Source: Clostridia bacterium (lineage in GTDB: Bacteria; Bacillota; Clostridia; Oscillospirales; CAG-272). From it: 41,808 nt of DNA. Shown here one piece after another: positions 1,349-35,267 of this stretch (its first letter is position 1; each line of letters begins with the position of its first letter). The stretch is from contig JAFUKI010000128.1 of assembly GCA_017467815.1 (NCBI GenBank), positions 1 to 41,808 of the forward strand, in the 5' to 3' direction. The notes under the pieces were generated by a model. The model saw only the letters and a program-made list of their open reading frames with translations. It was not told the origin of the DNA and made no database searches. The position numbers and the translations under genes were made by a program.

Positions 1349-2217
1349 AGGCAAAACTCCTTTTGCAGTGCTTGTTCCAGATAATCAACAGCCTGTTCGT
1401 CCGGCGTACAGCTGAACGCAAATACCGGAACTGAGGAAATCAGGTCAATAGCCAAGGCACTTGCTTTTTCCACAAACGATTTCTCCCAGGTATGAACCGT
1501 CAGACCTGACCATATTCCTCGGAAAGCTTCACCGGAAGATAATTTATGTATTGAACATTCCGGAGCTTGTTTGAGGAGTATAATTGCTTTTATCGGACAG
1601 TTGGCATTCACATGGACTTTAGATGAGCCGGCATAAGGAGATCCCCACGCCGTCCACTGAGCGTTTTCTTTTGAGAGAATCGGTCTGTCTCCGTTGATCT
1701 GCCGGGCACCGCGATACTTACACCATAAATCAGCCTGAGTGGATTTACCGATTCCGGAAACACCGGAAAAGAGAATTCCACCAATGGATGTTTCTATACA
1801 TGATGCGTGAAAACACAGCTTGTTTCGTTGGAGAAGAATAGACTCAAAGTTCAGCAAATAGAAACAATTCTGCATCTCCGACACACAGCGATTGTAGGAG
1901 TTCAGATAATCCACATAAACCCGTCCATTCGCCCAGTCATATGTTGCGGAAGCATAATATTGCGGATCATCATGTCTCTCATAGAAATATTTCTTCAGAT
2001 TCCCATCTTTGTTTTCTACGATCTTGAAAGAATGTTCTGCTGCAATTATGTTTTCTGATATTGGAAGAAATGTGTCTGTTCCATAATAGACTGCACGAAT
2101 TTCTGCTGTAGTTCTTTTTAGACGAAATGGTTGGAATTCTTCGTTTTCGACAATGGGGTGATCGGTCTCAAGTTGAATCGTAATTCCTGAAATAGCCAGC
2201 CAATAGCTATACAACAT
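1345..2217 (-). CDS. HPr-kinase-like P-loop protein (system 1)
   Basis: A 290-residue protein with a C-terminal HprK-type kinase fold. A Walker A motif GVSGIGKST is at residues 152-160, followed by an INGDR motif typical of small HprK homologues found in RiPP clusters. The N-terminal ~130 residues show no motif I recognise. Established knowledge: HprK homologues in Paenibacillus-type lasso peptide clusters phosphorylate a C-terminal serine of the precursor. Here the adjacent peptide ends in Ser, so the same chemistry is possible, but this is inference. Start ATG 2217 overlaps the peptide stop by one base (TGATG) and its stop overlaps the radical SAM start by 4 nt, so the genes look translationally coupled. 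It is paralogous to 24891-25640 but longer at the N-terminus. Not a true HprK: the context is wrong and it lacks the usual HprK length and signature. Confidence 0.85.
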   Translation of the reverse strand: MLYSYWLAISGITIQLETDHPIVENEEFQPFRLKRTTAEIRAVYYGTDTFLPISENIIAAEHSFKIVENKDGNLKKYFYERHDDPQYYASATYDWANGRVYVDYLNSYNRCVSEMQNCFYLLNFESILLQRNKLCFHASCIETSIGGILFSGVSGIGKSTQADLWCKYRGARQINGDRPILSKENAQWTAWGSPYAGSSKVHVNANCPIKAIILLKQAPECSIHKLSSGEAFRGIWSGLTVHTWEKSFVEKASALAIDLISSVPVFAFSCTPDEQAVDYLEQALQKEFCL

Positions 2218-2462
2218 CAGGAATTGAATATATTAAATAAATTCCCAGAGGCAACATGCTCACAGTATCCTTCACCTTGTGTAACGCAAACTCCATTACC
2301 AACATTGAATATTGTAACTGTACCTCCGAAACCATCAGAACCGGTGAAACCACAATTTGAGACATCCATTAAAGTACCCTTGGAGTCATAATCACAAGAT
2401 GCAATCTGCTGGGACATTTCAAAGCTTTCATAAATCAGCTCAGGCTTAACATATTTTTTCAT
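2217..2462 (-). CDS. Putative RiPP precursor peptide, four Cys (system 1)
   Basis: An 81-residue peptide starting MKKYVKPELIYESFEMSQQIA, with no signal peptide or membrane segment. Cysteines lie at 23, 37, 59 and 67, the region after residue 23 is Gly/Asn/Ser-rich, and the last residue is Ser. The leader-like first 21 residues match those of the peptide at 23792-24028 almost position for position, including KPE, the acidic/aromatic stretch and the Met-x-x-x-Ile-Ala. The second half is diverged, as expected of leader versus core in RiPP precursors. It lies between the anchored-protein gene and the kinase gene and overlaps the latter. Start is ATG 2462 with GGAG about 11 nt upstream; an in-frame TTG is at 2465. 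Family name not known to me; the precursor role is inferred from composition, paralogy and neighbours. Confidence 0.75.
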   Translation of the reverse strand: MKKYVKPELIYESFEMSQQIASCDYDSKGTLMDVSNCGFTGSDGFGGTVTIFNVGNGVCVTQGEGYCEHVASGNLFNIFNS

Positions 2463-2483: not shown

Positions 2484-3296
2484 TTAAGAATTATTGATTT
2501 CAACACGTACTACTTCAGCGAAGCCAAGGATGCAATCCACGGCTTCAAACTCTGCAGTTCCATGTGCGGGTAAGCTATTGATAGTATAATTATATGTAAT
2601 GCCGCCAAAATACCGGTCTTCCAGTACGGAACGGCAGTATACAACGATTTCATTTATATCAACATCGGTATTGTTCTTCAGAGTTATTCTCGTCCCCTTT
2701 GTTGAAATAGATATTTGCTCGGAATGCATGGATGCCTCTAGATCGAAAATGGTTTCATATCTGATATTTCCGAATACAGTATCCACTAACGATGATGCAT
2801 TTTCAGAGGAAAATACCATAACACTTTTTCCGGCAGGAAGTTCTCTGATTGCAAAGTGTATTGTTTTACCCTCATCAGAATCCAGGGTGATCAAACCTTT
2901 TTCAAGATATTCAGTCGAAAGATTCCGCACTTCCAGTGCAGTAATACTGTTTCCCTGACTATTATTACAGTCAGGATTCAGTCCATCGTACAGAAATACT
3001 CTTTCGATCTCCAATTTACCGTTTTCCAGACGTATCGGAAATTCGATCGGATCATCAATCATGACAGTTTCAGATTCGTTGATGGTTTCGGAATATTCTG
3101 AAGCTGGGATCTCCGTTTCTGGCGATTGTAGATCCTCAACAGGTACATTGTTTCCACTATCTGCTTCACGGCTTATGGGATCCACAAGTACAACCAACAT
3201 GATGATCGGTATAATGAACAAAACTGCCAGTATCGCAAGAAATCCCAAATGTTCCGCGCGACTCTCTTTTCTGTGTTTCTGTTTTTGTTTTTTCAT
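2484..3296 (-). CDS. Membrane-anchored extracytoplasmic protein of peptide system 1
   Basis: A 270-residue protein of unknown family. A basic Lys/Arg-rich N-terminus (residues 1-16) precedes one hydrophobic helix (about 17-39), then an acidic Ser/Glu/Thr linker (about 45-80) and a beta-rich soluble domain, predicted outside the cell. It is a diverged paralogue of 24098-24901: both share (L/I)PAGKS(V)..VF and Y(F/L)GGITY motifs at matching positions in the C-terminal half. Start ATG 3296 overlaps the PqqD stop as ATGA. Being encoded in both copies of the system, it is probably a dedicated component such as a receptor, immunity or display partner; which of these cannot be told. It has no protease or transporter signature. 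Confidence 0.8.
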   Translation of the reverse strand: MKKQKQKHRKESRAEHLGFLAILAVLFIIPIIMLVVLVDPISREADSGNNVPVEDLQSPETEIPASEYSETINESETVMIDDPIEFPIRLENGKLEIERVFLYDGLNPDCNNSQGNSITALEVRNLSTEYLEKGLITLDSDEGKTIHFAIRELPAGKSVMVFSSENASSLVDTVFGNIRYETIFDLEASMHSEQISISTKGTRITLKNNTDVDINEIVVYCRSVLEDRYFGGITYNYTINSLPAHGTAEFEAVDCILGFAEVVRVEINNS

Positions 3297-3562
3297 TCTT
3301 CAATAAGTATCTTCATTTGACGCAGCTGGTTCAGAAAGGTCTCGGTGTCCTCAACTGCTTCCTCCTCCGAGACTTTATATTCAGAGGTCAGAGCGGAAAC
3401 CAATTCCTCTCTTGTGCAGCCGTTTTTCAGTTTATTGTAGAGCAAAACGGCGCTTTCCGACAAAGCTATCAACCCTTTAACATGAATTGCAGCATCACCA
3501 ACCGGAATCAGAAGATTTTCATCAGCGATCGTCCGCAGGATAAATTGATCATTGATTCTCAT
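3293..3562 (-). CDS. PqqD-like peptide-recognition protein (system 1)
   Basis: An 89-residue PqqD-family protein starting MRINDQFILR. It shows the family pattern of an N-terminal beta-wing (LIPVGDAAIHVKGLIALSE), then a winged-helix part (SAVLLYNKLKNG.TREELV..L), and a C-terminal helix with FLNQLRQMKIL. PqqD-type proteins bind the leader of a RiPP precursor and present it to the radical SAM enzyme. Start ATG 3562 has AGGA and GGAG upstream; an in-frame ATG at 3607 would add 15 residues unlike the family. It is the first visible gene of the operon and overlaps the next gene by ATGA. Its paralogue is at 26739-27005 (LVPVGETAL, ..ITEVGAKIWEML.DG). Confidence 0.9.
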   Translation of the reverse strand: MRINDQFILRTIADENLLIPVGDAAIHVKGLIALSESAVLLYNKLKNGCTREELVSALTSEYKVSEEEAVEDTETFLNQLRQMKILIEE

Positions 3563-3581
3563 ATATTCCTCATTTTCTCCT

Positions 3582-3731
3582 TCAATATTTAAAACTGAGT
3601 GGAACATATTCTGGTGTATCCAGTGAATTCAACAGCGATTTTATGATTTCTTTTCTCCATTCTTCCTTAAATCGCTCGGATCGTCGAACTTCCAAACACA
3701 GTATCGATACAGAAATCGTGTCCGTTTTTTG
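3582..3731 (-). pseudogene. Possible 3' remnant of a broken gene upstream of the PqqD gene
   Basis: A 49-codon open stretch with no ATG start, bounded upstream by TAG (3732-3734) and ending in TGA at 3582-3584, 19 nt before the PqqD start. The end reads like a natural protein C-terminus, with amphipathic charged sequence (RRSERFKEEWRKEIIKSLL) followed by a short aromatic/proline tail. Its upstream part lies in another frame inside the 3' end of the AP2 gene. One reading is that an operon gene was cut by arrival of the AP2 gene, leaving only its tail. It is short, so a chance open frame is possible. No family recognised. Confidence 0.3.
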
Positions 3732-12523: not shown

Positions 12524-12997
12524 ATGACAGATACATTATCCATAAAAACGCTGGATGCCTTCAAAGACGGGAATAATCTGCTGGAACTGCTGAGCAGCGG
12601 TGCGGTGATCCCGATGATTGTGACCGGCTCCAGTATGCTTCCTTTTCTGAAAGACGGAAGGGATACGGTACTCCTACAAAAAGCCGATACATTCAAAAAG
12701 GGGCAGATTCTTTTCTTCCGCCGCAGAAACGGTTTTTTCGTTCTCCATCGGATACGTAAGATCCGGCGGGACGGAAGGATCCTGGTAAACGGTGATGCGC
12801 AGAATTGGTGCGAAGTGGTTATGCCTGAGCAGGCTGCCGCTGTTGTTATCGGATTCGTGCGTAACGGTAAGACCTGCGATGCTGACAGTTTTCTCATAAG
12901 GCTGCGGGATGCTTTATGGTATCCGACCCGTCCCCTGCGCCCTTTGATCTTCCGTTTGGCTTCCTTTTTACGGCGTTTATTCCCCCGGCGGGGTTAA
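12524..12997 (+). CDS. S24/S26-type serine peptidase, signal-peptidase-like
   Basis: A 157-residue protein with the S26 signature: nucleophile serine in VTGSSMLPFLKDGRD, then GQILFFRRRNGFFVLHRIRK, then LVNGDAQ. The LHRI segment with His in place of the bacterial catalytic Lys resembles the Ser/His ER-type signal peptidases. No N-terminal membrane helix is visible; a weakly hydrophobic, very basic C-terminus (ending RRLFPRRG) may touch the membrane. Established knowledge: small S24/S26 peptidases and nucleotidyltransferase-fold proteins like the next gene co-occur with PqqD and HprK-like genes in peptide clusters, so this may serve the systems at 2217 and 23792. That link is inference. No good ribosome binding site precedes ATG 12524. 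Confidence 0.78.
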   Translation: MTDTLSIKTLDAFKDGNNLLELLSSGAVIPMIVTGSSMLPFLKDGRDTVLLQKADTFKKGQILFFRRRNGFFVLHRIRKIRRDGRILVNGDAQNWCEVVMPEQAAAVVIGFVRNGKTCDADSFLIRLRDALWYPTRPLRPLIFRLASFLRRLFPRRG

Positions 12998-13019: not shown

Positions 13020-14216
13020 ATGCAATCTCCCTCTACTCTGCTGATCCGATGTATCCGTTCCGAACTCGGACAGTATTCCCTTGCCGATTTGTTTTCGGAA
13101 GATGAGCTTGCTTTTCTTGTTTCCGATGAAACGGCTCGGGCGGTGTTTGCGGCTGCTTCTCCTCAGGATCTGAGTCATATTCCTGCGGCGGTCTTCTGCA
13201 AACTGCAGTCACGGATTTCCGATGCTATGTTCGCTTCCGTGAAAAAGGTGCGTTTTCAGACGGCGTTCCGCTGTGAACAGATTACCCATGAAACGCAGGC
13301 TGTTTCCGGATTATTCTGTGCGTCCGGAATCCCTCATATTCCACTGAAGGGTGCTTTTATTAGACCGTATTATCCCTCTCCCGATATGCGTACCAGCTGT
13401 GACGTGGATATTCTTGTTTCTACAGATGATCTGCGAAAGGCGGAAAATGCGCTTACGGAAAAGCTTGGCTACACAAAGATCCGTGATGGCGGACACGATG
13501 TGCAGTTTTCTTCTCCCACGGGTGTTCTTCTGGAACTCCATTTCACGCTGATGGATGAAAAGGATTATCCCCGTATTTCTGCCGTTCTGTCCCGGGTGTG
13601 GGAAAATGTGCGGCCTTCGGATGAAGGTTCGTATAAGATGGTTATGTCACCGTCTTTTGCCTATTTTTATCATATTGCCCACATGGTCAAGCATTATCTC
13701 TACGGCGGATGCGGAATACGGACTCTGATGGATCTCTGGATCTTCAATCACCGCATTCCCGGTTTTGATCGTGGAGATGCTGCGGAATTGTTGGCGGAAG
13801 CCGGTATTCTGCGCTTTGAAGAAAAAGTGTATTCTCTTGCAGAAATGTGGTTTTCTGGTGCGGAATGTGATTTTGATGATAGAGAACTGTTATCCCAGAT
13901 GGAAGAATACATTGTATCCGGCGGTATATACGGTTCTGTGGAAAATAAGCTGAAGCTGAACCGACTGGATAATCCTGATCAGGGGGCATATCTGAGATCC
14001 AGGCTGTTCCCGCCTTTTGAACGGATGAAGTACGAATATCCTGTACTGCAGAAACATAAAATTCTTCTGCCCTTCTGTTATCTGAAACGATGGGGCAGAC
14101 TGCTTTCAAAAAATACTGCCAAGAAAGTTTCCTTAGAGTTAAAGCACAACAGTGAACTGACACCGGAAGGACAGGATAAATTCCGGCAGATGCTCACGGA
14201 TCTTGGTTTGAAATAA
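13020..14216 (+). CDS. Nucleotidyltransferase-fold protein (NTP_transf_5 type)
   Basis: A 398-residue protein of the uncharacterised nucleotidyltransferase family. The core is PLKGAFIRPYYPSPDMRTSCDVDILV, in which DVD supplies the metal-binding acidic pair, followed by VLLELHFTLMD. The flanking helical parts are unassigned. No reaction is established for the family to my knowledge; members recur in capsule and RiPP-like loci beside S24/S26 peptidases, as here. Start ATG 13020 has AAGAAGG 5-6 nt upstream. It is 22 nt behind the peptidase gene and 11 nt before the LCP gene. Confidence 0.8.
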   Translation: MQSPSTLLIRCIRSELGQYSLADLFSEDELAFLVSDETARAVFAAASPQDLSHIPAAVFCKLQSRISDAMFASVKKVRFQTAFRCEQITHETQAVSGLFCASGIPHIPLKGAFIRPYYPSPDMRTSCDVDILVSTDDLRKAENALTEKLGYTKIRDGGHDVQFSSPTGVLLELHFTLMDEKDYPRISAVLSRVWENVRPSDEGSYKMVMSPSFAYFYHIAHMVKHYLYGGCGIRTLMDLWIFNHRIPGFDRGDAAELLAEAGILRFEEKVYSLAEMWFSGAECDFDDRELLSQMEEYIVSGGIYGSVENKLKLNRLDNPDQGAYLRSRLFPPFERMKYEYPVLQKHKILLPFCYLKRWGRLLSKNTAKKVSLELKHNSELTPEGQDKFRQMLTDLGLK

Positions 14217-14227: not shown

Positions 14228-15487
14228 ATGAAAAACAGTGAAAAGAAAAAAATCAGTATAAAACGGATCATCCTTACCGTGATTCTTGTTCTTATTCTCG
14301 CCGTAGTGATCGCCGTTGCTGCTCTGGCAATTACACTGCTGGTACGGTATCAGAAGAATTCTTATATTTACCAGCCGCCTGTGGAACGGGAAAGTGAATT
14401 CATAATGCCGGACTACCCGGAGGTTGTTATTGATACGGAAGGCAAGTGGCAGGAAGGTGTGGACGAAACGGAAGCAGCGACTGAACCGGAAACCGAAACG
14501 GATGCACCGGAGACTGAACCTCCCGAGACAGAACCAGCCGGTCCGGAAACCGAGACTGTCGATGATATAACTACCGTATACGTGCCGCCGGAGACGGTTG
14601 CCCCTGTGGTGAATCCCACTCCTTCTGCGCCGGTATATGTTCAGCCGTCCAATCCCGATGCATCCTTTGCCAATTCTCCCAATGCGGTCAGCGTTTACGG
14701 CAAGGTTCCCATTTACAAGGTACAGCAGAAAGACCCCGATGTGAAAAATATTCTCGTTCTGGGCACGGACAGCAGAGATATAACGTCTGACAGAGGAAGA
14801 AGCGATACCATGATCATTGTATCCTACAATGAGAAGACCGGGTCTGTGAAGCTGACTTCCCTGCTCCGCGACTCCCTTGTTCCCATCGAAGGTCATGGCT
14901 GGAACCGTATCAACACCGCATATTTCTTCGGCGGTGTGGGTCTGGCGATCAATACGGTGAATCAGCTCTATGATCTGGATATTCAGAATTTTGTGGTGAT
15001 CGATCTCAACGGTGCAGAGGATTTTGTGGATTATATCGGTGGGGTTGATGTATATCTGACGCAGGCTGAAGCGGATCTTTACCACCTTTATACGGGAAGA
15101 GATCTTGTAGCCGGGGTGAATCATCTGGACAGTCAGGTGGCGATGAATCACATGAGAAACCGTGAGATCGGCAATGACTTTGAACGAACCCGGCGGCAGA
15201 GGGATACCATTACCGCTATCATCAATCAGATCCTCAAAAACAAGTCTGCGACGGAGATCTATGATATTGTGGATCACTCCTTCACTCTGATCAAGACCAA
15301 CATTTCCGCGACCGATCTTGTAGGGTTGACGACCTCTGTACTTGGTAATGCATCTGCGCTGACGGTAGAGTCTCAGAATGTTCCCTACAGCGATGCGTAT
15401 CAGTTCGGGTGGTATAACGGTATGTCGATCATTACATTCGATATCGCCGAGGCAGCTTCCAGAATCAATGCGTTTATATATGAATGA
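14228..15487 (+). CDS. LytR-CpsA-Psr (LCP) family glycopolymer ligase
   Basis: A 419-residue membrane-anchored enzyme. A basic N-terminus precedes one helix (about residues 13-38), then a Glu/Thr/Pro-rich linker (about 70-125), then the LCP domain with NILVLGTDSRD, GRSDTMIIVS, LTSLLRDS, RINTAYFFGG, VVIDLNGAEDFVDYIGGVDV and NREIGNDFERTRRQR, which together give the Arg/Asp pyrophosphate-lipid site. LCP enzymes transfer lipid-linked glycopolymers to peptidoglycan or protein outside the cell, so this is the likely final attachment step for the polysaccharide. Start ATG 14228 has GGAG 6 nt upstream. Last gene of the operon, followed by a hairpin at 15501. Confidence 0.93.
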   Translation: MKNSEKKKISIKRIILTVILVLILAVVIAVAALAITLLVRYQKNSYIYQPPVERESEFIMPDYPEVVIDTEGKWQEGVDETEAATEPETETDAPETEPPETEPAGPETETVDDITTVYVPPETVAPVVNPTPSAPVYVQPSNPDASFANSPNAVSVYGKVPIYKVQQKDPDVKNILVLGTDSRDITSDRGRSDTMIIVSYNEKTGSVKLTSLLRDSLVPIEGHGWNRINTAYFFGGVGLAINTVNQLYDLDIQNFVVIDLNGAEDFVDYIGGVDVYLTQAEADLYHLYTGRDLVAGVNHLDSQVAMNHMRNREIGNDFERTRRQRDTITAIINQILKNKSATEIYDIVDHSFTLIKTNISATDLVGLTTSVLGNASALTVESQNVPYSDAYQFGWYNGMSIITFDIAEAASRINAFIYE

Positions 15488-15893: not shown

Positions 15894-18800
15894 ATGAAAA
15901 ACTTTTCATTCAAACGCTTGACAGCCTGGCTGCTGACGCTTGTGATGTTGGTTGGCGTAATGCCTTTGGGTATTGTGCTGCCGGTGGAAGCGGCGTCGGA
16001 CAGTGAGACTATCTATGTTCTGGCTGGCGGTGACTTCCAGGAAGCCGGTGACCACGCAAACAGTGCGGAAAATGTCACCAATATTCTGGCACAGATCAGT
16101 AAGAACTACGATACGATGGACGGATTCCTGTTCATCGGTGACTATGACTGCGAAACGCATGATAGTGCCACCGAAACAGCTAACGGTATCACTGCACTGA
16201 TGGGTGCTGTACAGGGTTCATATTCCAACCTTGTCGATTCCAATTCCGTTCTGGTACAGGGTAATCATGACTATATGGATTCCCGTATTGATGCTACCGG
16301 CGGACATGAGTTCGATGGTTATTCCGCTTATGTCCTGAACGAAGACGATTACCCCAACGGCGGCGGTTCTCAGTCCGGTGTTCAGACTCTTGCGAACAAT
16401 CTGAAGACCTGGCTGACCGATAAGATTGGCGAAGGTTACTCTGCCCCCATTTTTATTGTTTCCCATCTGCCTCTCGCATTCACTCCCAGAACTGTTACTC
16501 AGGGTGATGCAAAGTATGCGAAGTACATTTTTGATGTGCTGAATGATGCGGCTGCTAACGGTCTGAACATTATCTTCCTGCACGGTCATGACCATGCATA
16601 CGGTCCTGATAACTATATGGGCGGTGAAGCAATCTATCTGCCTGTAGGAGATAAGATCTGCATCGCTGAAGCGGGTTCTACCAGCGCATGGACTGAAGAA
16701 ACTCTTAATTTTACGTATATGAACGCCGGTTATACCGGGTATTATTCCGATGCGTATACATATGTTACTACTGCAGGTACTGACAAACTGACCATGACTG
16801 TTTTTGCCATTACCGACAATCAGGTGACAGTTGAGCGTTACAGCGAAGACGGTTTGTATAATCTGAAGTCTGCCGGTTATGACGGATCTTACAGCAATAC
16901 TTCTGTGGACAATATTTCTCTTGGTCTGCCTAAGTACGATACAGTTTATGCTTCTCCGCAGACTATTACTCTGAGCGAAGCACAGGATTATGGTTCTACT
17001 ATCGGTGAATGGGTTGGTGTTGAAGCTGAAACTACCGATGACGTTACTGTTGGAAATGAGGGTTGGGTTGAACTCATAGCGCCTAAGGAAGGTGGGACAA
17101 CTTACACCTATACACAGGCCAATTCTATCACTGCGGGTGAAGAATATGTCATCGTTGCTAGTAATGCAGCAGTAGCACTTCAGGGTACTACCAGTATGGG
17201 CACCCAGGGTGTTACTATTGAAGGTACAACAATGACTTCCACCGTGGAATTGACCGAATGGACGATTTCTGGTACAGGTAATGCTACCGTTTATAATGGT
17301 AGTCGTTACCTGCGCTATAATAACGGTATGGGTTTGAGTACCTACAATAATTCTGTTTATATTGTTGATAATGGTGATGATTTTATCATTAAGAGAAGAC
17401 AAAACAATACTGGTTATGCCTTGTACTATAATGATGGTTGGACAACAAGTGATCGAAATACTGCCCAATATGTCCGCCTGTATCAACTGACCGATACAAC
17501 CACCACCGAGGAGCAGAACGGTACCTACGGCAAGGTCGTTGGTAAGCTTTCCTACGACGCCACTGTCGGCATGACCGCTGATGAAGCGATGGCTCTGGTT
17601 AAGGCTGGTATTGATGGCTACTACTACGAAGCTATGTCTACTCCTGGTTCTGATGTAACCGGTACTATTGTTGACGACAGCGTTCTGACTTGGGAATGGG
17701 TTGATACCTTCGACGGCAACACTGCAGGTGACTATGAGGTTGCTATCAAGTATGGTGATTTCCTGCTCGGCACTGCTGAAGTAATTGTTCCTGCGACCAC
17801 TACTTATTATATTGCTGAAGGTAATGGTCTGTATCTGGTTGACATGAACACCACTGAAGCAAACGCTCTTGCAGCAGTCAAGGCTGGTATAACAGTTTAC
17901 TCTGCTACCGATTTGAACGGTACCGGCAAGACTGCTATTTCCGACGATGATGTTACCTGGAATTGGGTTGATAAATACAACGGTGCTGACTCCGGTCCTT
18001 ATACTGTTGAGATTCTGAAGGACGGTACTTCCCTTGGTACTGTTGAAGTTAAGGTTAACGTAAAGTATGAAACCGGGATCAATTCCGACTGGACTTATAT
18101 TGGTGAGTCTGAAGCTACCGGCGGTACTCATACCTATACGCTGGATACGGATGGTATTGATGCAGATGGACAGTATATTATCGTTGCTGAAAGTCAGGCT
18201 CTGGCTCTGCATACCAGTGGTTCTTCCGCGGCAACTGCCATTTCCGTTACTATTTCTTCCGATGGAAAGACCCTGACTACCGATACCCGTGACTACGAGT
18301 ATTATTGGAATTCCACCTACGGTTTTACCAGAGATGGATATAATGGCTTATATCAGTCCAGTTGGGCTATTTATCTGGGCGAGAAGAGTGCTTCCTATCT
18401 GGATGGTGTGGTCAATCATAATAACGGTACCTACACCCTGTATGATAACGAAGGTAATATTCGTGGCTTGACCTATAGCGGTGGTTGGACAGTTGCTGGT
18501 GACGAGGATACTTACACCGATTACAAAGTCCGTCTCTACAAGTACACCGGCACTACTGGTGGTACTTCTGCTGGTTCCATCTACGCAAAGATCGAAGGTA
18601 ATACTGTTTATACCGTTGACCAGGGTACTTCTTCCACACAGGCTCTTGCTGCTGTTAAAGCAGGCATTACCGGTTATATATCCAACAGTGCTGATGGTTC
18701 TACTCCCACTGCGATTGATGACTCTTTACTGACATGGAAATGGAAGAATACTTATACCGGCAACTATACCGGTTCCTACTGGGTTGAAATCAGTTATGAC

Positions 18801-21800
18801 GGCAAAGTACTTGGTACTGTTGAAGTTCAGGTTGTACCTGCTGTAATTGACGACTATCCCGATTACCCCAACGAAGGTGCTGTTAAAGTAAATAAGACTG
18901 CGATCTATACCGATGAAGATTTCCGTAAAACAGGTGTTGCTCAGGTTGAGCTTTCCGTTTCCGGTGTTCCCTCTAAGAAGGGTGTTGACGTTGTTATCAT
19001 GCTGGATACATCTTCTTCTATGGAAACTTGGTGTGTTTGCGGAACTCAGAACTGTACCAGTACCGGAACCGGTCACGCCAGACGTAGTGCCGTTCTGGAA
19101 GAATCTCTGAGTAATCTGGTCACTCTGTTCAAGACTCCCGGTGATGACGGCGAACTTCTGGATATCCAGGTAGCTATCGCTGACTTCAACGGTTTCTACG
19201 GCGACAATCACAATGCCTCCGGCACCGCTTACGACAGAGATGCTGCCGATATGATGTCCGATGACATTTACTATAATGCCAATAGCGAAGCACAGGTTTA
19301 TACCGGCGATGGAACGCTGACCGCGGGTGCTTTCATTGACGTAGCTGACTTAGCTTCGTCCTATACACTGAACTATACATCCGGTACTAACTACGACTAT
19401 GCAATGGACGCTATCTATCAGTTAGCAAGTGCCAAGCAAGATTCCAACTTCGAGGACCGTGACCTATTCGTTATCTTCCTGTCTGACGGTGCTCCTATGC
19501 AGTGGAACTATTACCATTCTCAGGGTAATTCTTCTCTTTGGAATAACTGGATCACCGGTGCTTGGTCCAGTAATCAGCTGACAACTACGAACCTGAACTG
19601 TACAACTCACGCATATTACTATGACGAAGTTGACCACGACGGCGACGGACAGCTTAATGAACACCGTATGGCTAACGCTATAAAAGGTGCCCCCACTGAG
19701 CAGTTTGAGGTAATCCGTAAGACGAATACCCTTGGTACGGCAACGGATGAAACCAACATGTATATGGTTCCCGGTCTGGGTGCAACCATGTTTGCCATCT
19801 CTTTTGGTGCGCAAGATGACGGTAATGTTACAAAAGAAAGTATGCACATTGCCATTGACTCTCTGGCATCACCTGAAGATGATACTTCTACTCCTTATCA
19901 CTACCACGTAACTTCTGCCGATGAACTGACAAGTGCTTTTAACTCCATCGGTACTGAAATTGCCTATGCTGCGAACAACGCACGTTTCGTTGACCAGATG
20001 GGTGAAGCTTTTGACCTGCAGCTCACACAATCTGTTACAAGAGAAGTAGACGGCACGCCAATAACACTGGATGTTAAACCAACTATTACTGTTAAGACGT
20101 ACGACATCTACACAAAGGCTGAAGCTGATGCAGATCCCAATGATGATATTACAACCGATATGATCGGAACTCGTAAAGGAACTTATAAAGTTCTTGAGAC
20201 GGTTTCATTTACCGATGACGGAGAGGGTACCGTAACTGGTGCATATTCCGATCAGATCAACAGTGGTAATACTAACATTCTCGCAGACGGTACACAGACC
20301 GGTTTCTATAAGAATGTAATCTACGCAAAGACATTTGTTTACAACAACAACAAGGACGGTACTTATGCATATCTTGATACCGACGGTGACGGCATCGAGG
20401 ATTATGCACTCGCTCCCGAAACCTTCTACTGGAAGGTCGGTACTGTGACTACAACCGAGTTGGCAATCAGCTATTATGTATATCTGACCGATACCATGAA
20501 TGGTGAACGTGCCCCCGGTTCCTACGCAACCAACAATTTTGCTATCCTTTATTATGACAACTACCTGGGTAATGAGTGTGAAATCCACACTGTATCCCCT
20601 ATGCTCGCTTGGAAACAGGCAAACGTAAGTTACGCGTTCTACCTTGTAAATAAAGACGGTGAAGTTATTGTAGACCGTAAAACCGGTGCAACTGGTACCT
20701 TTGCTAATAGAATTGCTGTAACTCGTCCTGTAGTATATGACTACTGTTATCTGAACACAGAAAGTACCATTGAAGCAAGAACTCTTTCTGTTGCAGAAAG
20801 TACAGTTCTTCCCGACGGTTATACTATTTACGATACTGATGCGGCATACAACATTCTGGTGCTTTCAGATGATTCGGATACTAAAGCAGGTTGGACCATT
20901 TCCAAGAGTAATTCTGTTGCAACTGCTTCAACTTATGTAACCGGGTTCTATTCAGATGTTCAGTATAGTAATGCACTTACTGAACATAATACCGCATACG
21001 ACTACACTCACACAACCGTTTGGTTCGCTGTAGTTTGGGTTCCCAGTACCATTCCGGATCAGGTTGTTGTAGACTACGGTCTGCCTGTTGACATCAGCGT
21101 CCTTGAAAACGATTTGTTCGAAACGAACAACAGAATACTTACTGGTATAGGTCTTACCAATCCTGTTGCCGCTGGTAATATTTCTCAAGAAAACCACGAC
21201 ACCAGTTTCGGCACTTCCCTTTCCATGGGTGAGAATGGTCTTTCTTATGGTACTGCTGTAATCAGCGATGAAGAGGTTCGTTATTCTCCAGCCGATATGC
21301 AGATGGATGGCTATGATAAGTTTGTTTACGAAGTTCAGTACACGATCAATAACGAAACCCAGTACTATTACGGCGATGTAACAGTCATTCCTGCGACTAC
21401 CATTTATTATGAAGAATCCTTTGTAACATTCACTCCTGCTTCCCGGGTAACCGTAAATTCAAGTGGCACTGTGGTCGAAGGTTCTGCTGTAGAAGTTAAG
21501 GCCGGTGAAATGGGTTACTGGTCTAAAGTTGGTACTGCAAGCAGCGGCACTACTCAGGATGAAGACCGTCCCGGTAAATCAAGTGTTGCTACGATCGACC
21601 GCGACAATATCTACGGATATGACGGAGTTTACAATTCTATTACCGAATACAGCCTTGGTACTGCAATGCAGGTAACTGTAGGTGACTCCGAGAAAGCGGC
21701 TGACGGTTCCTATACAACAACAGGTTACAACGGTTATGCTCCTAAGGCATCCTTCACCTTTACCGGTTCAGGATTTGACATCATTTCTCTGACCGACAGT

Positions 21801-23780
21801 GATGCCGGTGCCATCATAGTGACTGTTAAACAGGGTGATACGGTTGTAAAGACCAGTCTGGTAGCTAATTACTACGGTATGAGTTATGAAGCCCTCAAAA
21901 ATGAAGACGGCAGTCCCCAGGTCGATGAAGCCGGAAATACTGTTTACGGTTGGGTTCCCACCGAAAACGGTGCAATTTGGCAGGTTCCTGTAATCAAGAT
22001 GACCTCTGAAGATCTTGGCGGATACGGCACATATACTGTTGAAATTCAGCTTGTATATCTGCCTATGTTCGATTTAGGTACCAATCCTGCAACGCAGGGT
22101 CAGTATAACTTCGTTCTTGATGCAATTCGAATCTATGACCCGGCAAATGGCGGTGCTGCTGATGGCAATAACGCTGATGGCACTCCTGATACCACAATAG
22201 AGGATGCATACGCAGCAGACGGCGAGTCTAATCCTCGTTACCTGTTGATCAAAGAAGCAATTCTTGATGCAGCCAGTGCTGATACCCTCTACTCCAATGG
22301 TGATGAAGGTAATGGTGTTGTCTTTATTGACGGTATTCCTGAAGCTACCAAGGTAGATGATTACAAAAACCCCGGTCCTAACAATGAAGCATATCTTGCT
22401 CCCGGACAGTCAATTTCCTTTAAGTTGAAAGCCAATGCTACACCGCTTGAAGTACATGTCGGGGCCAAACTTGCAAACGGTACTTCCGCTGATGTAATGT
22501 TTACTTACACAGGAACTACTGGTTCTGACTCCAAGGTTCGTACGTTTGACACCGCTACGGATATGTATTATCCTATAACCGATTATCTTGGACTTGTACA
22601 GGATAACCAGTTTAGTACAACTGCTGTAGCTTGGACTTCCGGAACCATTACACTGACCAATGTTTCCGAAGATGCAATTGTATCTCTGACAAATATCAAA
22701 GCGACATTCTACCTTTCCTCTGTAGGTGATACTGATGGTGGTACATTTGTACAGAGCAAGAGTACTTCCACCGGAACCTTCTCGTTCCTGACAGCTCAGA
22801 CAAATGCATACTCTGTATCCAGTCTTACTACTACTGACACCACTGCTGAACCTGTTGCAATTGCATTCCTTGTTGATGCTGATGTAATCGAAGATGCTTG
22901 CAGTGTTATGAACGCACTCTACGCCCCGGCTCCTGAAATCACTGTTCCTGAAGTATTTGTTCCCGAAGTTCTTGAGTACACCGTTACTTCCGGTTTCTTC
23001 GGTACTAATACTGTAACCGTGATCACTTCCCAGGATGTTGCTTCTCTGACAGTTAACGGCATCGAAGCACAGAACCTGAACTCCTCCAGAATGTTCAGCA
23101 GCATGCTTAAGATGATCAGCAACTTTGAAAAGACCTTCGGTATTAACTTCTCCTCCGATGAATACTACCTCTGGACAGTTACAACAAAGCGCGCTGATTC
23201 TTACGACATCGTTGCGTTCAACGAGGACGGTCTCTCTTCCGATGCTTCTGTCACCGATTCCTACACAAGTATTACTGAGGAAGATATTACCGGATTCTTT
23301 GATCGTTCCGAAGTGTTTGGTGTTATGGAAGAACTTGCAAGACAGTCCTTCTCTCCTGAATATTTTGAATCGTACTTCAACGAAAGACTGGACGGCAAGC
23401 GCGAGATTATTACGCATACTTCCGAAGATGTTGATTATGTAATGATCGAAGGTGAGATCGTAGATCGTTATATTACTAAGACAGTCATCGACATCGAAAC
23501 CGGCGAAGAAACCCAGACACGCGTATGGATCGCCGACGCTGAAGATAAGACCGAAGACGAAGTTGAAGTAAATGCATACGATGAAAAGGGTGTTTCTTCC
23601 GATTCGAAGAAGGCTGAGCATAAGCGTGGTTTCAAATTTGATTCACAGAAGAATGAAGACACCGAAAGTGATTCCGGAAACAATCGTAACAACGGTAATT
23701 CTAATTCCTATTCCAAGAATAATGGAAAGAATAATAACAAGAATTGGAAGAAAAATTCCGGGAAAAATGTAAGAATGTGA
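15894..23780 (+). CDS. Giant secreted protein: metallophosphoesterase, repeats, vWA
   Basis: A 2628-residue exported protein. The signal peptide spans residues 1 to about 34 (cleavage after VEA or VEAA). A calcineurin-like phosphoesterase domain follows: IGDYD at 81-85, GNHDY at 123-127, SHLP at 190-193, GHDH at 231-234. Its first motif reads DFQ where D-x-H is usual, so activity is uncertain. Duplicated modules follow (17050-18843), then a vWA domain with MIDAS DTSSS at 1038-1042 and FLSDGAP, with many tandem beta-rich regions beyond. The C-terminus is Asn/Lys/Ser-rich with no LPxTG motif or membrane helix, so anchoring is not by sortase. Start ATG 15894 has GGAG 6 nt upstream; an upstream in-frame ATG at 15789 would hide the signal peptide. 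Its stop is 11 nt before the peptide gene at 23792, so it is likely co-transcribed with peptide system 2. Confidence 0.88.
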   Translation: MKNFSFKRLTAWLLTLVMLVGVMPLGIVLPVEAASDSETIYVLAGGDFQEAGDHANSAENVTNILAQISKNYDTMDGFLFIGDYDCETHDSATETANGITALMGAVQGSYSNLVDSNSVLVQGNHDYMDSRIDATGGHEFDGYSAYVLNEDDYPNGGGSQSGVQTLANNLKTWLTDKIGEGYSAPIFIVSHLPLAFTPRTVTQGDAKYAKYIFDVLNDAAANGLNIIFLHGHDHAYGPDNYMGGEAIYLPVGDKICIAEAGSTSAWTEETLNFTYMNAGYTGYYSDAYTYVTTAGTDKLTMTVFAITDNQVTVERYSEDGLYNLKSAGYDGSYSNTSVDNISLGLPKYDTVYASPQTITLSEAQDYGSTIGEWVGVEAETTDDVTVGNEGWVELIAPKEGGTTYTYTQANSITAGEEYVIVASNAAVALQGTTSMGTQGVTIEGTTMTSTVELTEWTISGTGNATVYNGSRYLRYNNGMGLSTYNNSVYIVDNGDDFIIKRRQNNTGYALYYNDGWTTSDRNTAQYVRLYQLTDTTTTEEQNGTYGKVVGKLSYDATVGMTADEAMALVKAGIDGYYYEAMSTPGSDVTGTIVDDSVLTWEWVDTFDGNTAGDYEVAIKYGDFLLGTAEVIVPATTTYYIAEGNGLYLVDMNTTEANALAAVKAGITVYSATDLNGTGKTAISDDDVTWNWVDKYNGADSGPYTVEILKDGTSLGTVEVKVNVKYETGINSDWTYIGESEATGGTHTYTLDTDGIDADGQYIIVAESQALALHTSGSSAATAISVTISSDGKTLTTDTRDYEYYWNSTYGFTRDGYNGLYQSSWAIYLGEKSASYLDGVVNHNNGTYTLYDNEGNIRGLTYSGGWTVAGDEDTYTDYKVRLYKYTGTTGGTSAGSIYAKIEGNTVYTVDQGTSSTQALAAVKAGITGYISNSADGSTPTAIDDSLLTWKWKNTYTGNYTGSYWVEISYDGKVLGTVEVQVVPAVIDDYPDYPNEGAVKVNKTAIYTDEDFRKTGVAQVELSVSGVPSKKGVDVVIMLDTSSSMETWCVCGTQNCTSTGTGHARRSAVLEESLSNLVTLFKTPGDDGELLDIQVAIADFNGFYGDNHNASGTAYDRDAADMMSDDIYYNANSEAQVYTGDGTLTAGAFIDVADLASSYTLNYTSGTNYDYAMDAIYQLASAKQDSNFEDRDLFVIFLSDGAPMQWNYYHSQGNSSLWNNWITGAWSSNQLTTTNLNCTTHAYYYDEVDHDGDGQLNEHRMANAIKGAPTEQFEVIRKTNTLGTATDETNMYMVPGLGATMFAISFGAQDDGNVTKESMHIAIDSLASPEDDTSTPYHYHVTSADELTSAFNSIGTEIAYAANNARFVDQMGEAFDLQLTQSVTREVDGTPITLDVKPTITVKTYDIYTKAEADADPNDDITTDMIGTRKGTYKVLETVSFTDDGEGTVTGAYSDQINSGNTNILADGTQTGFYKNVIYAKTFVYNNNKDGTYAYLDTDGDGIEDYALAPETFYWKVGTVTTTELAISYYVYLTDTMNGERAPGSYATNNFAILYYDNYLGNECEIHTVSPMLAWKQANVSYAFYLVNKDGEVIVDRKTGATGTFANRIAVTRPVVYDYCYLNTESTIEARTLSVAESTVLPDGYTIYDTDAAYNILVLSDDSDTKAGWTISKSNSVATASTYVTGFYSDVQYSNALTEHNTAYDYTHTTVWFAVVWVPSTIPDQVVVDYGLPVDISVLENDLFETNNRILTGIGLTNPVAAGNISQENHDTSFGTSLSMGENGLSYGTAVISDEEVRYSPADMQMDGYDKFVYEVQYTINNETQYYYGDVTVIPATTIYYEESFVTFTPASRVTVNSSGTVVEGSAVEVKAGEMGYWSKVGTASSGTTQDEDRPGKSSVATIDRDNIYGYDGVYNSITEYSLGTAMQVTVGDSEKAADGSYTTTGYNGYAPKASFTFTGSGFDIISLTDSDAGAIIVTVKQGDTVVKTSLVANYYGMSYEALKNEDGSPQVDEAGNTVYGWVPTENGAIWQVPVIKMTSEDLGGYGTYTVEIQLVYLPMFDLGTNPATQGQYNFVLDAIRIYDPANGGAADGNNADGTPDTTIEDAYAADGESNPRYLLIKEAILDAASADTLYSNGDEGNGVVFIDGIPEATKVDDYKNPGPNNEAYLAPGQSISFKLKANATPLEVHVGAKLANGTSADVMFTYTGTTGSDSKVRTFDTATDMYYPITDYLGLVQDNQFSTTAVAWTSGTITLTNVSEDAIVSLTNIKATFYLSSVGDTDGGTFVQSKSTSTGTFSFLTAQTNAYSVSSLTTTDTTAEPVAIAFLVDADVIEDACSVMNALYAPAPEITVPEVFVPEVLEYTVTSGFFGTNTVTVITSQDVASLTVNGIEAQNLNSSRMFSSMLKMISNFEKTFGINFSSDEYYLWTVTTKRADSYDIVAFNEDGLSSDASVTDSYTSITEEDITGFFDRSEVFGVMEELARQSFSPEYFESYFNERLDGKREIITHTSEDVDYVMIEGEIVDRYITKTVIDIETGEETQTRVWIADAEDKTEDEVEVNAYDEKGVSSDSKKAEHKRGFKFDSQKNEDTESDSGNNRNNGNSNSYSKNNGKNNNKNWKKNSGKNVRM
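17050..18843 (+). repeat. Duplicated modules inside the giant protein
   Basis: Two kinds of module are repeated. A roughly 150-residue type, with Y(I)IVA(S/E)...AL followed later by NGxY.L..., occurs at about 17050-17500 and 18079-18550. A roughly 88-residue type, with ALAAVKAGI, LTW.W and a closing LGT.EV.V, occurs at about 17524-17793, 17799-18063 and 18574-18843. The order is A-B-B-A-B. This suggests growth by internal duplication of carbohydrate- or ligand-binding-like units; the fold is not assigned. Confidence 0.75.
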
Positions 23781-23791: not shown

Positions 23792-24028
23792 ATGAAAAAA
23801 ACTTATGCAAAACCCGAAATCTTTTTCGAAAACTTCAAAATGACAAGCAGTATTGCTAATGGCAGCTGTTCAGATGGCTTTGAAGTCAGTTCAAGCAGCA
23901 TCGACACTTGTTCATACAATCACAACGGAGTAAAATACTTTGGATCAGATAACGTTTGTGTTTATGTAACATCTGATGCTACCTGCTATCAGGTACCCAT
24001 TCCCGGTGTAACACTCTTCGCTTCCTAA
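23792..24028 (+). CDS. Putative RiPP precursor peptide, four Cys (system 2)
   Basis: A 78-residue peptide starting MKKTYAKPEIFFENFKMTS, paralogous in its leader to the peptide at 2217-2462. Cysteines lie at 26, 40, 56 and 65 (the other copy: 23, 37, 59, 67), so the first pair is spaced 14 apart in both and the last pair 8-9 apart. Both have a VCV element at the third Cys, and both end in Ser (here LFAS). The core is Ser/Asn/aromatic-rich. Start ATG 23792 has GAGGT about 8 nt upstream; a TTG directly before is in frame. It lies 11 nt after the giant-protein stop and is followed by a hairpin that may raise its mRNA level above that of the enzymes. The precursor role is inferred. Confidence 0.75.
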   Translation: MKKTYAKPEIFFENFKMTSSIANGSCSDGFEVSSSSIDTCSYNHNGVKYFGSDNVCVYVTSDATCYQVPIPGVTLFAS

Positions 24029-24046
24029 ACTAAATTCTATTTTGAC

Positions 24047-24080
24047 AAACCCCTGCCTGCCATCGAGGTAGGCGGGGTTT
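24047..24080 (+). terminator. Hairpin between precursor and enzyme genes
   Basis: AAACCCC-T-GCCTGCC (24047-24061) pairs with GGTAGGC-GGGGTTT (24067-24080) with one bulge and one mismatch. Few T follow (GAATATTTAT), so it is probably an attenuator or 3' stabiliser rather than a full stop, a common feature after RiPP precursor genes. Confidence 0.6.
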
Positions 24081-24097
24081 GAATATTTATAAGAATC

Positions 24098-24901
24098 ATG
24101 AAAAATATAAAGAAGAATAACAATTCAACTGGCTCTTTGAAAAAGTTGCCGGAAGGGCTGATGGAGTTTTTTGTGCTTTTTGCAGGGGTGGCACTGGTAA
24201 TCCTTTTAGTGATCGGCATACGTTCCTGTTCTTCAGGTTCGGCTGTTCCTGACGGTGTTCTTGACGATGCTTCCCTGTCTGAGCAGAATCCGCCCGGTGC
24301 AACCGTTCTTACGGTTATTCCCACCGAAACAGTTTCCTTTCCTTTTTCCCTCTCTCAAGGAATTGTTTTAGAGCAGTTCTATACCTCCACAGGGTACTTT
24401 CCTGAAGACGGTACTGAAGAAGACATCGAAAATGTTCTGGCTGTCAAGCTGACCAATACATCTGACAAAACTCTGGAATATCTGACATTCACTCTGAATG
24501 TTAACGATATAAACTTTAAGTTTGCTGCTACTACCATACCTGCCGGCAAAAGCGTTTATGTGTTCAATACTGAACGCTTTGCTGCACCTGGCAGTATTAT
24601 TTCCCTGGAATCAGCTGTAGAATATGAGATTTATTTCAACGAAGAACCCTCAACATTGCCGGATATTCTCTCGTGTGAAATTCAGAACGGTTCCATTGTT
24701 GTAAAAAACATTTCCGAGTACGATATTTCTTCTGACATATTCATTTACTATAAGGTAACTGCCGATGGCGGTTACCTGGGCGGTATTACGTACCGTCTGC
24801 GTGTCTCCGGTGGTCTTGATGCTGGAGAAACTTACAACGCCTACGCACCTCATGCGTTCATCGATAAAACGGAGATTATGTTTGCACATTATGAAGAATA
24901 A
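24098..24901 (+). CDS. Membrane-anchored extracytoplasmic protein of peptide system 2
   Basis: A 267-residue protein, paralogue of the one at 2484-3296. A basic Asn/Lys-rich N-terminus precedes one helix (about residues 22-42), with a Cys just after it (RSCSSG), then a linker and a beta-rich outer domain. Shared landmarks are (T)IPAGKSVYVFN and GYLGGITYRL. The spacing from helix to domain is similar. Start ATG 24098 has no strong binding site. The stop overlaps the kinase start by 11 nt. Presence of this family in both systems argues that it is a core component; mechanism unknown. Confidence 0.8.
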   Translation: MKNIKKNNNSTGSLKKLPEGLMEFFVLFAGVALVILLVIGIRSCSSGSAVPDGVLDDASLSEQNPPGATVLTVIPTETVSFPFSLSQGIVLEQFYTSTGYFPEDGTEEDIENVLAVKLTNTSDKTLEYLTFTLNVNDINFKFAATTIPAGKSVYVFNTERFAAPGSIISLESAVEYEIYFNEEPSTLPDILSCEIQNGSIVVKNISEYDISSDIFIYYKVTADGGYLGGITYRLRVSGGLDAGETYNAYAPHAFIDKTEIMFAHYEE

Positions 24902-25640
24902 TAAGTACACATTTGGCGATGTCACTTTTGAAGTGGAGCTACCCGTCCCGCTTTCTGACGATAACAATTGTGTGGACTTCCTTTCGGAGCGTAATCCAGA
25001 TTATACGATTCGTATTCTTATCGTTGATGAAGTTGACAGTAATACATCGATGGCTGAAAGAAACGGCAACCAAATTACCCGTTTTTTCCGGAATGGTATG
25101 CCCAATAAATTAGCTATTGCTTCTCTGTTTGCTGATTCTAAAGTGGCATTTGTATTTCCGGATCACGACGCATTTATTCTTCATGCTTCGTATATTCTCT
25201 ATAAAGGAAAAGCAGTTTTATTTACCGCCCCCAGTGGTACAGGTAAAACGACGCAAGCGCAGTTTTGGCGTGATGTTCACGGTGCTGAAATCATCAACGG
25301 AGACCGTGTATTGGTCACAAAACGTAATGGTATCTTTTATGCCAATGGTATTTATGCGTCCGGTACCTCAGGTATTTGCAAGAATATCACTGCTCCTGTG
25401 GGCGCAGTTGTTCTATTGGAACAAGGAGAACATGACGAAATCCTGCCAATCCCGCCAAGAATGTTATTTCTGCGCATACTCTGTGAGTGTTCCTATGATT
25501 TAAGGGACAGCCACCAATGCGAAAAAATTACGGAGCTGGTCTCCGATATGATCAATGCTCTGCCAGCGATCTGTTATCGTTGTACAAAAAGTCCGGATGC
25601 TGCCGTGACTTTGGAAAGGATATTATGGAACAGACAGTAA
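24891..25640 (+). CDS. HPr-kinase-like P-loop protein (system 2)
   Basis: A 249-residue HprK-type protein. Walker A is APSGTGKTT at residues 113-121, and EIINGDRVLV follows, as in the copy at 1345-2217. The N-terminal 100 residues are diverged and about 40 shorter. Start ATG 24891 (MKNNKYTFGD) lies within the end of the preceding gene; upstream in-frame starts would only add overlap. The gene ends 16 nt into the radical SAM gene, so coupling is likely. The proposed role is phosphorylation of the precursor, by analogy with the lasso-cluster HprK homologues that act on a C-terminal Ser; not shown here. Confidence 0.85.
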   Translation: MKNNKYTFGDVTFEVELPVPLSDDNNCVDFLSERNPDYTIRILIVDEVDSNTSMAERNGNQITRFFRNGMPNKLAIASLFADSKVAFVFPDHDAFILHASYILYKGKAVLFTAPSGTGKTTQAQFWRDVHGAEIINGDRVLVTKRNGIFYANGIYASGTSGICKNITAPVGAVVLLEQGEHDEILPIPPRMLFLRILCECSYDLRDSHQCEKITELVSDMINALPAICYRCTKSPDAAVTLERILWNRQ

Positions 25641-26752
25641 GAACCACGCCTTCCGGTGAACCACTATGGTCATCCTTCATTCATGCCAAAGGAGCGGCAC
25701 TTGGTCTACCCATAGCAGGTAACTTTGAGCTGACCTCCAACTGCAACTTCAATTGCAAAATGTGCTATATCCATGGTGATAACCACAAAGAAGCATTGAG
25801 TACCGAGGATTGGATCAATCTCGGTAAAACCGCCAGAGATGCAGGTATGGTATTTCTGCTTCTCACCGGCGGCGAACCCTTTCTGCGCAAGGATTTCAAG
25901 GAGATCTATGCAGCTCTTATCGAAATGGGATTGCTGATTTCCATCAATACAAACGGTTCGCTTATTGATGACGATATGTTTGCTTTTTTGGTCAAGCATC
26001 CGCCGCTGCGAATGAATATCTCACTGTATGGGTGTAATGATACCGTATACCAAGAACTGTGCGGCAAGCCGGTTTCTGATGTTGTTAAGCATAATATACG
26101 TCGTCTCCATAATGCCGGTATCGGTGTAAAGATTAATGCATCTGTTACCCCATACAATGCATCCGAAATAGAAGAGATCTATGCTTTCGGAAAAGAAACC
26201 GGTGTCCATGTTCAAGCTACAACATATATGTTTCCGCCGGTCCGTATCTGCAGCGAACAGTATGGCTGTTCCCAAGCCAGATTTACAGCAGAAGAAGCGG
26301 CGGCATATATGTTAAAGTGTCGTGAGCAGTATATGACCGCAGAACAGCTAAGCAATTCCTCCGGCTTATCTGTGGATGAAGACAGCGATTGTGTTGCCGA
26401 AGAAGGAGAACATATGCGGTGCAGAGCCGGGAGAACGGCGTTCTGGGTCACCTGGGACGGTCGTATGCTTCCCTGTGGTATGTTTCCCTATGAGGGATAT
26501 AAGATCGCTGATATGGGCTTTAAAGCCGCCTGGGACGCTGTACGAGCTTTTACAGAGACTATTCGTATGCCTAAAGAATGTACAGGCTGTGCGCATAAAA
26601 ATCGCTGCAGTGCCTGTGCTGCGTCTGTAATTGCGGAAACCGGCAGTGCATCTGTAAGACCGGACTATATATGCCGTATGACTGAAATACTTAATAAGCT
26701 GACAACAGAAAAATATCCCAAGCAGGAGGACGATCAAAATGCTGATCAATAA
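25625..26752 (+). CDS. Radical SAM/SPASM peptide-modifying enzyme (system 2)
   Basis: A 375-residue enzyme, paralogue of 212-1348. Radical SAM cysteines C40, C44, C47 (CNFNCKMC) are followed by LLTGGEPF and the SPASM cysteines CRAGRTAFWVTWDGRMLPC, CTGC...C..C and YIC. Start ATG 25625 has AAAGGA 4-6 nt upstream and overlaps the kinase by 16 nt; earlier in-frame starts lie inside the kinase gene. The inferred substrate is the peptide at 23792. Chemistry (thioether, beta-thioether, epimerisation or other) cannot be predicted from the sequence. Confidence 0.93.
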   Translation: MEQTVRTTPSGEPLWSSFIHAKGAALGLPIAGNFELTSNCNFNCKMCYIHGDNHKEALSTEDWINLGKTARDAGMVFLLLTGGEPFLRKDFKEIYAALIEMGLLISINTNGSLIDDDMFAFLVKHPPLRMNISLYGCNDTVYQELCGKPVSDVVKHNIRRLHNAGIGVKINASVTPYNASEIEEIYAFGKETGVHVQATTYMFPPVRICSEQYGCSQARFTAEEAAAYMLKCREQYMTAEQLSNSSGLSVDEDSDCVAEEGEHMRCRAGRTAFWVTWDGRMLPCGMFPYEGYKIADMGFKAAWDAVRAFTETIRMPKECTGCAHKNRCSACAASVIAETGSASVRPDYICRMTEILNKLTTEKYPKQEDDQNADQ

Positions 26753-27005
26753 AAATGTAGTTCACAGAGAAATTGCAGGAGAGCATATTTTAGTTCCTGT
26801 CGGAGAAACTGCTCTGCGTTACAGTGGTATATTTTCCATTACTGAGGTTGGTGCCAAGATTTGGGAGATGCTTCGTGATGGTAAGGATATTCCGGATATC
26901 ACTGCGGCGCTTCTGGAGACTTATGATGTGGAAAAAGATGTCCTTGAGAAAGATATTGATGATTTTCTGCAGATGCTCCGGGAGAATGAGCTGATTCTGG
27001 AATAG
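26739..27005 (+). CDS. PqqD-like peptide-recognition protein (system 2)
   Basis: An 88-residue PqqD-family protein: HILVPVGETALRYSGIFSIT forms the wing strands, VGAKIWEMLRDGKDIPDITAALLE the helices, and DDFLQMLRENELI the last helix. Start ATG 26739 has AGGAGG about 8 nt upstream and overlaps the radical SAM gene by 14 nt. In system 1 the PqqD gene is first in the operon; here it is last, so the genes have been rearranged between the two copies. A strong terminator follows at 27039. Confidence 0.9.
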   Translation: MLINKNVVHREIAGEHILVPVGETALRYSGIFSITEVGAKIWEMLRDGKDIPDITAALLETYDVEKDVLEKDIDDFLQMLRENELILE

Positions 27006-27038: not shown

Positions 27039-27075
27039 GGGAACAGGTTTGAAACGAACCTGTTCCCTTTCTCTT
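27039..27075 (+). terminator. Terminator of peptide system 2
   Basis: A perfect 11-bp stem GGGAACAGGTT (27039-27049) / AACCTGTTCCC (27057-27067) with a 7-nt loop, followed by TTTCTCTTTT. Confidence 0.9.
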
Positions 27076-28811: not shown

Positions 28812-28839
28812 ACGTATTTTGTTTATTTCACTTTGGATG

Positions 28840-35265: not shown

Positions 35266-35267
35266 GA

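Follow-up and report, generated by a model that had tools for sequence, protein, structure and literature searches.

A proposed clostridial RiPP family that combines a radical SAM enzyme, an HprK-fold kinase and a giant secreted protein

We analysed contig JAFUKI010000128.1 of a Clostridia bacterium (assembly GCA_017467815.1; Oscillospirales, CAG-272), a stretch of 41,808 nucleotides hereafter called the window, which carries on its plus strand a five-gene cassette (cassette A) encoding a four-cysteine precursor peptide, a membrane-anchored protein, an HprK-like kinase, a radical SAM/SPASM enzyme and a PqqD-type protein. The cassette belongs to a conserved family of ribosomally synthesized and post-translationally modified peptides (RiPPs), which is closest to the linear polyphosphorylated peptides (LPPs) and the phosphorylated lasso peptides and is set apart by its radical SAM enzyme and by a giant secreted protein as partner. 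Its gene content, conservation and recurrence, the near-invariant C-terminal serine of the precursor and the tight coupling to the giant gene are established. The reading that we favour, and regard as reasonably probable, is that a RiPP recognition element (RRE) binds the leader, the cysteine core undergoes radical modification, the last serine is (poly)phosphorylated and the product works in partnership with the giant protein. Radical SAM and kinase chemistry joined in one pathway are apparently undescribed, and so is the giant-protein linkage; our literature search, with most subscription journals outside its scope, found no published description of the pathway.

To collect relatives, the radical SAM alignment (A1) was searched, and 80 loci in named genomes were found, nearly all of them from gut or rumen clostridial metagenome-assembled genomes; together with the window and seven relatives this gave 88 loci. 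Profiles built for the analysis detected the HprK-like kinase in 80 of these loci, PqqD in 74 and the membrane protein in 57. Because the five-gene set recurs in these loci and as a second copy in the window, it is more than a chance arrangement. The commonest order was giant protein, precursor, membrane protein, kinase, radical SAM enzyme and PqqD. So that the enzyme would not be the only starting point, an alignment of the precursors (A2) was then searched in 395 family genomes, where the precursor was patchily distributed (21 genomes); the radical SAM enzyme was found in 23 and the giant-protein domain in 18. The enzyme was present in 19 of the 21 precursor genomes (Fisher p 1.6e-26), and 17 of the 18 giant-domain genomes also had the precursor (Fisher p 3.9e-25). 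The recurrent gene set supports the RiPP pathway with both radical SAM and kinase chemistry that the original prediction, made from the letters of this window, had proposed, and the co-occurrence of leader homologues with the enzyme, suggested there as a check, came out in its favour. Of the 25 precursor neighbourhoods inspected, about 20 had the giant domain and 17 had both the kinase and the radical SAM enzyme. At five loci (L140, L141, L143, L144 and L154) precursor genes had no modification enzymes nearby, and all but L154 adjoined a giant gene. Seven genomes had an orphan giant-precursor pair, and in five of them a radical SAM copy lay on a different contig, so the enzyme can probably act in trans.

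The precursors share a leader with the consensus MKKxYxKPEIxFExFxLSxxIA, followed by the core and a C-terminal block CYHxP......FxS. Y5 and P8 were invariant in alignment A2, and they form the [Y/W]xxP motif that PMC13381572 (Nat Commun 2026) describes as the site bound by the RRE in LPP and lasso precursors. The PqqD-type RRE would bind this leader of the roughly 80-aa precursor; among NCBIfam models, the PqqD protein came closest to the Bacillota lasso-peptide PqqD (RRE), with a score below that model's cut-off. Analysis of 73 non-redundant precursors, chosen by the leader alone and thinned below 60% identity, showed that 55 had four cysteines in the core and that 71 ended in serine, the remaining two having serine in the penultimate position. 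By comparison, only 5.4% of 497 other open reading frames (≥150 aa) from the same loci ended in serine. In an 18-sequence alignment the C-terminal serine was the sole invariant serine or threonine. A sister branch (G602, G433 and G518) had the kinase, radical SAM enzyme, PqqD and a signal peptidase I-like (SpI) protein with shorter precursors (MKKEYTKP...) containing two to three cysteines. At L180, L182, L183 and L190 in these genomes, several kinases, SpI proteins and YxxP precursors stood side by side, some of these systems were without a radical SAM enzyme, and the single-contig genome G602 had four kinases within about 34 kb. In another genome (G324 contig C127, locus L131), one precursor sequence was present in two oppositely oriented copies on the same contig, and the giant-domain frames beside it contained stop codons; this duplication may be an assembly palindrome.

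The radical SAM enzyme contained the radical SAM/SPASM motif, and its PF13186 match fell just below the cut-off (19.7 vs 21.5). C266, C284, C319, C322, C328, C331 and C350 of the SPASM part were invariant in 88 sequences, and no NCBIfam maturase model reached its cut-off. The plasmid and phage collections returned generic matches only (under 33% identity), so the enzyme is not plasmid or phage cargo in those collections. We propose that it modifies the Cys-rich core, most likely by forming thioether cross-links on the four conserved cysteines. It is conceivable, and deserves serious attention even though we would not bet on it, that the product is instead a phosphopeptide of LPP-like type on which the radical SAM enzyme has another action (for example on a non-cysteine residue, by C-C or C-O cross-linking, or by epimerisation), while the cysteines only form disulfides after export. 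SPASM enzymes have many reactions, the best PDB sequence matches of this one were mixed (SkfB, MoaA, SuiB and PqqE), and the aromatic residues F50 and Y66 were about as conserved as the cysteines in the precursor alignment. However, the cysteines are the most regular feature of the core, and they are found again in the shorter precursors of the sister branch, where a radical SAM enzyme also occurs.

The unit of cassette A begins further upstream than the precursor, with the giant gene, whose stop lies 11 nt ahead of the precursor ATG. The same arrangement was seen repeatedly: 38 precursors, the window included, lay directly 3' of a giant gene on the same strand, and 35 of them at a spacing of −4 to 34 nt. 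A Pfam scan of the full-length giant protein was empty, while a scan in pieces revealed Metallophos. The modules ahead of the shared domain vary, being a metallophosphoesterase here and a GH20 hexosaminidase, sialidase-like BNR or VWA/pilus-tip-like module elsewhere; the shared domain itself gave one weak match only in the PDB (E 0.094). Under the reading that we favour, the product would act at the cell surface as a partner of the giant protein, the two being encoded together in the first part of the operon. A secreted antimicrobial of the sactipeptide- or ranthipeptide-like bacteriocin kind, with the giant neighbour incidental, would also have a four-Cys core, a radical SAM/SPASM enzyme with PqqD and a patchy distribution; we consider this unlikely, since the giant gene lies with tight spacing upstream of so many precursors and is there too when the enzymes are encoded at another place in the genome, and since most loci have no adjoining exporter gene, ABC transporters adjoining the cassette only in some relatives (L015/L066, L070 and L099). 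It is still more doubtful that the small open reading frame is an unmodified structural subunit of the giant protein and that the enzymes modify the giant itself: the giant and small genes do form the tightest pair, but the leader has the RRE-binding motif described above, and in several loci the giant gene lies downstream of the cassette or on the other strand.

The AlphaFold model of the kinase (pLDDT 92) resembled HPr kinase/phosphatase and PEPCK structures, with a Foldseek probability of 1.0 to 1ko7/1kkl and, against the PEPCK structure 2pc9, a VIA Z of 14.0 (rmsd 3.8, 229 aligned). H100, K121 and D140 (numbering from window position 24885) were invariant in 74 of 74 kinases, and the Walker A motif and catalytic His/Lys/Asp of the HprK/PEPCK fold were both present. 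The kinase thus has, as judged from the predicted structure and these residues, an HprK fold, in keeping with the HprK-like kinase named in the original prediction. A sequence-profile search of the PDB gave no match, and just three weak matches were found on plasmids. The lasso-peptide kinases PadeK, ThcoK, SyanK and PsmK (poly)phosphorylate the C-terminal serine of their precursors, and this serine is extremely conserved in kinase-bearing lasso clusters (PMC9266682). Because these kinases target that residue, we assign the last serine as the phosphorylation site: the kinase would (poly)phosphorylate it as PadeK, ThcoK and PsmK do on lasso precursors. HprK/P is a regulatory kinase in Bacillota, and a kinase of this fold might act on a regulator (HPr or another protein) that controls expression of the surface operon, rather than on the peptide; this is very improbable, since the kinase is a fixed part of the cassette in 80 of the 88 loci and the near-invariant terminal serine of the peptide fits lasso-kinase specificity.

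Upstream of the giant gene and on the same strand, genes for a SpI-like protein, an NTP_transf_5 protein and an LCP glycopolymer transferase follow CpsB/CapC and Wzz-type genes in a capsule-type operon. The SpI-like protein matched TIGR02228 at 2.2e-06, below the cut-off. Both SpI and an NTP transferase are among the LPP core genes (PMC13381572). The leader peptidase had been reported as missing, but with this archaeal-type SpI-like protein, of the LPP protease type, a candidate is present in the window. This soluble protein would probably remove the leader, the role that LppS has in LPPs, and the NTP_transf_5 protein may add to the phosphate. In a comparison of 41 genomes, SpI-like proteins occurred in 16 of 21 precursor genomes vs 7 of 20 others, and NTP_transf_5 in 18 of 21 vs 8 of 20. 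A further idea, which we put forward as speculative and rather doubtful, is that the modified peptide is a surface component tailored to the giant protein, with its C-terminal phosphoserine, extended by NTP_transf_5 and possibly LCP, tethering the peptide to a glycopolymer of the wall or capsule and the giant, be it an adhesin or an enzyme, along with it; if true, the RiPP would be a structural anchor and not a secreted antibiotic or cofactor.

Several observations weigh against the reading that we favour. Two genomes (G034 and G125) have the precursor without a radical SAM match, and the first set of relatives was itself collected through that enzyme, the second set being free of this. Sister-branch precursors have no regular C-terminal serine despite their kinase and radical SAM enzyme, so the phosphorylation site would differ there, and the C-terminal serine marks the giant-linked branch. 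For the fourth position of the published His-Lys-Asp-Asp motif, no residue of the kinase could be assigned. The SpI-like gene lies 11 kb upstream and, although enriched in precursor genomes, is not universal; NTP_transf_5 is likewise enriched, but not exclusive. Finally, radical chemistry cannot be read from sequence, and the conserved cysteines could form disulfides.

Open reading frame and profile evidence placed the five plus-strand genes of cassette A where they had been predicted, with overlapping junctions or short gaps (Table 1): the kinase gene starts before the membrane-protein gene has ended, and in the same way the radical SAM gene starts inside the kinase gene and pqqD inside the radical SAM gene. 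The description of these genes as one coupled run holds for the strand and the close junctions, but not throughout, since a stable hairpin in the intergenic stretch 3' of the precursor (MFE −27.3 and z −4.4 for this stretch) parts it from the enzyme genes. Strong folds (z<−2) were found 3' of the precursor in 28 of 32 homologous gaps tested. Such a fold allows the giant protein and the precursor to be produced at higher levels than the enzymes. As had been noted before, no exporter gene adjoins cassette A in the window. For the membrane protein, no convincing structural relative was found (best Foldseek E 1.4e-3 to RbmA, TM 0.17; VIA Z at most 6.5). Downstream (27726-35651), the window encodes a class A beta-lactamase-like lipoprotein (PF13354), a sigma-like protein and a BlaR1-type M56 protein of 1,994 aa with a very long extra part.

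Table 1 Features of cassettes A and B and of the upstream genes in the window
Feature	Position	Strand	Details
SpI-like protein, archaeal type; candidate leader peptidase	12524..12997	+	GSSM...VLHRI, Ser-His type
NTP_transf_5 protein (PF14907); candidate phosphoserine modifier	13020..14216	+	
LytR-CpsA-Psr (LCP) glycopolymer transferase	14228..15487	+	context; link to the peptide speculative
Giant secreted protein A	15894..23780	+	2,628 aa; signal peptide, calcineurin-like phosphoesterase, VWA-like and repeat regions
Shared giant-protein domain, ~400 aa	21336..22535	+	common to about 43 of 50 relatives; no Pfam/NCBIfam match
Precursor peptide A	23792..24028	+	78 aa, 4 Cys; leader MKKTYAKPEIFFENFKM, C-terminal ...CYQVPIPGVTLFAS
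Stable, terminator/attenuator-like RNA hairpin that separates precursor and enzyme genes	24046..24081	+	folding energy
Membrane-anchored protein A	24098..24901	+	N-terminal transmembrane helix and two Ig-like beta-sandwich domains
HprK-fold kinase A	24891..25640	+	fold prediction, invariant H/K/D
Radical SAM/SPASM enzyme A	25625..26752	+	PF04055 2.8e-25; CxxxCxxC core
PqqD-type RRE A	26739..27005	+	PF05402 3.3e-18
Intrinsic terminator-like stem-loop after pqqD, end of cassette A	27039..27067	+	sequence
Radical SAM/SPASM enzyme B	212..1354	−	43% identical to enzyme A
HprK-fold kinase B	1345..2217	−	
Precursor peptide B	2217..2462	−	MKKYVKPELIYESFEM...CEHVASGNLFNIFNS
Membrane-anchored protein B	2484..3296	−	
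PqqD-type protein B	3293..3607	−	

While the original prediction described cassette A itself, it passed over the giant protein, the SpI-like and NTP_transf_5 genes, the near-invariant C-terminal serine and a full second five-gene cassette (cassette B) on the minus strand of the same window (212-3607). The gene order in cassette B differs from that in A (pqqD, membrane protein, precursor, kinase, radical SAM), and the contig ends 211 bases past its radical SAM gene. The genome of the window had only two kinase copies and two closely related radical SAM copies, which are those of the two cassettes. Contig C151 of this genome (L191, 5493-10802) encodes another giant protein, which has the shared domain together with a GH20 hexosaminidase module and runs off the contig end. 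This GH20-type giant is probably the partner of cassette B, and we infer that C151 adjoins the contig of cassette B. Beside cassette B (3667-5527) lie a resolvase-type recombinase and a protein in which GRRFGKLTV-type motifs are repeated, and a recombinase is also found near the relative of cassette A in L013 (4684-6105), which hints at mobility.

We know of no role for kinase-modified RiPPs such as paeninodin and LPP. Here a presumed kinase-modified peptide is tied at the gene level to a giant secreted protein whose N-terminal modules are exchangeable, and this linkage gives a concrete, testable way into function. The family also yields a specific prediction, phosphorylation at one near-invariant serine, and it places a radical SAM and kinase pathway in gut and rumen clostridia.

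Among known systems, the SynChlorMet cassette is similar in that ScmC is the best, sub-threshold NCBIfam match of the kinase and that the cassette has radical SAM/SPASM members by model name, but the cut-offs were far from reached (ScmC 18.3 of 125 bits, ScmE 68 of 400, ScmF 47.6 of 400). Sactipeptides and ranthipeptides share the radical SAM/SPASM maturase, the RRE and the Cys-rich core, while the kinase, the conserved C-terminal serine, the YxxP leader and the giant surface-protein neighbour are features of the present family. A standard lasso system was rejected: as predicted, there were no lasso B/C genes, C and B2 being absent among the annotated window genes (the whole genome was not searched for the C protein), and the lasso leader-peptidase family PF13471 had no match in the genome of the window (90.7% complete). 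Paeninodin and pseudomycoidin nevertheless resemble the family in their HprK-like kinase, discrete RRE and NTP-transferase partner, and in kinase-associated precursors that end in serine, as 71 of 73 do here; the differences are the radical SAM enzyme in place of a macrolactam synthetase and B2 protease, and the four-Cys precursor of about 80 aa (PMC9266682). According to PMC13381572, LPPs have a YxxP leader, a discrete RRE, an HprK-like kinase, an archaeal-type SpI and an NTP transferase, often in capsule loci; these have counterparts here, with the distant SpI-like protein as a candidate for the SpI. In the same source, the LPP core set is without a radical SAM enzyme, the phosphorylated serine is core residue 3 whereas the conserved hydroxyl here is on the last residue, the leader YxxPxVLxHQxIxFETxxS is unmatched beyond YxxP by the consensus here (YxKPEIxFESFxLSxxIA), and in the sections consulted neither a giant-protein partner nor the membrane protein is reported. 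The type of system, which had been left without a name, can thus be placed nearest to the LPPs (PMC13381572) and to the phosphorylated paeninodin-type lasso peptides (PMC9266682).

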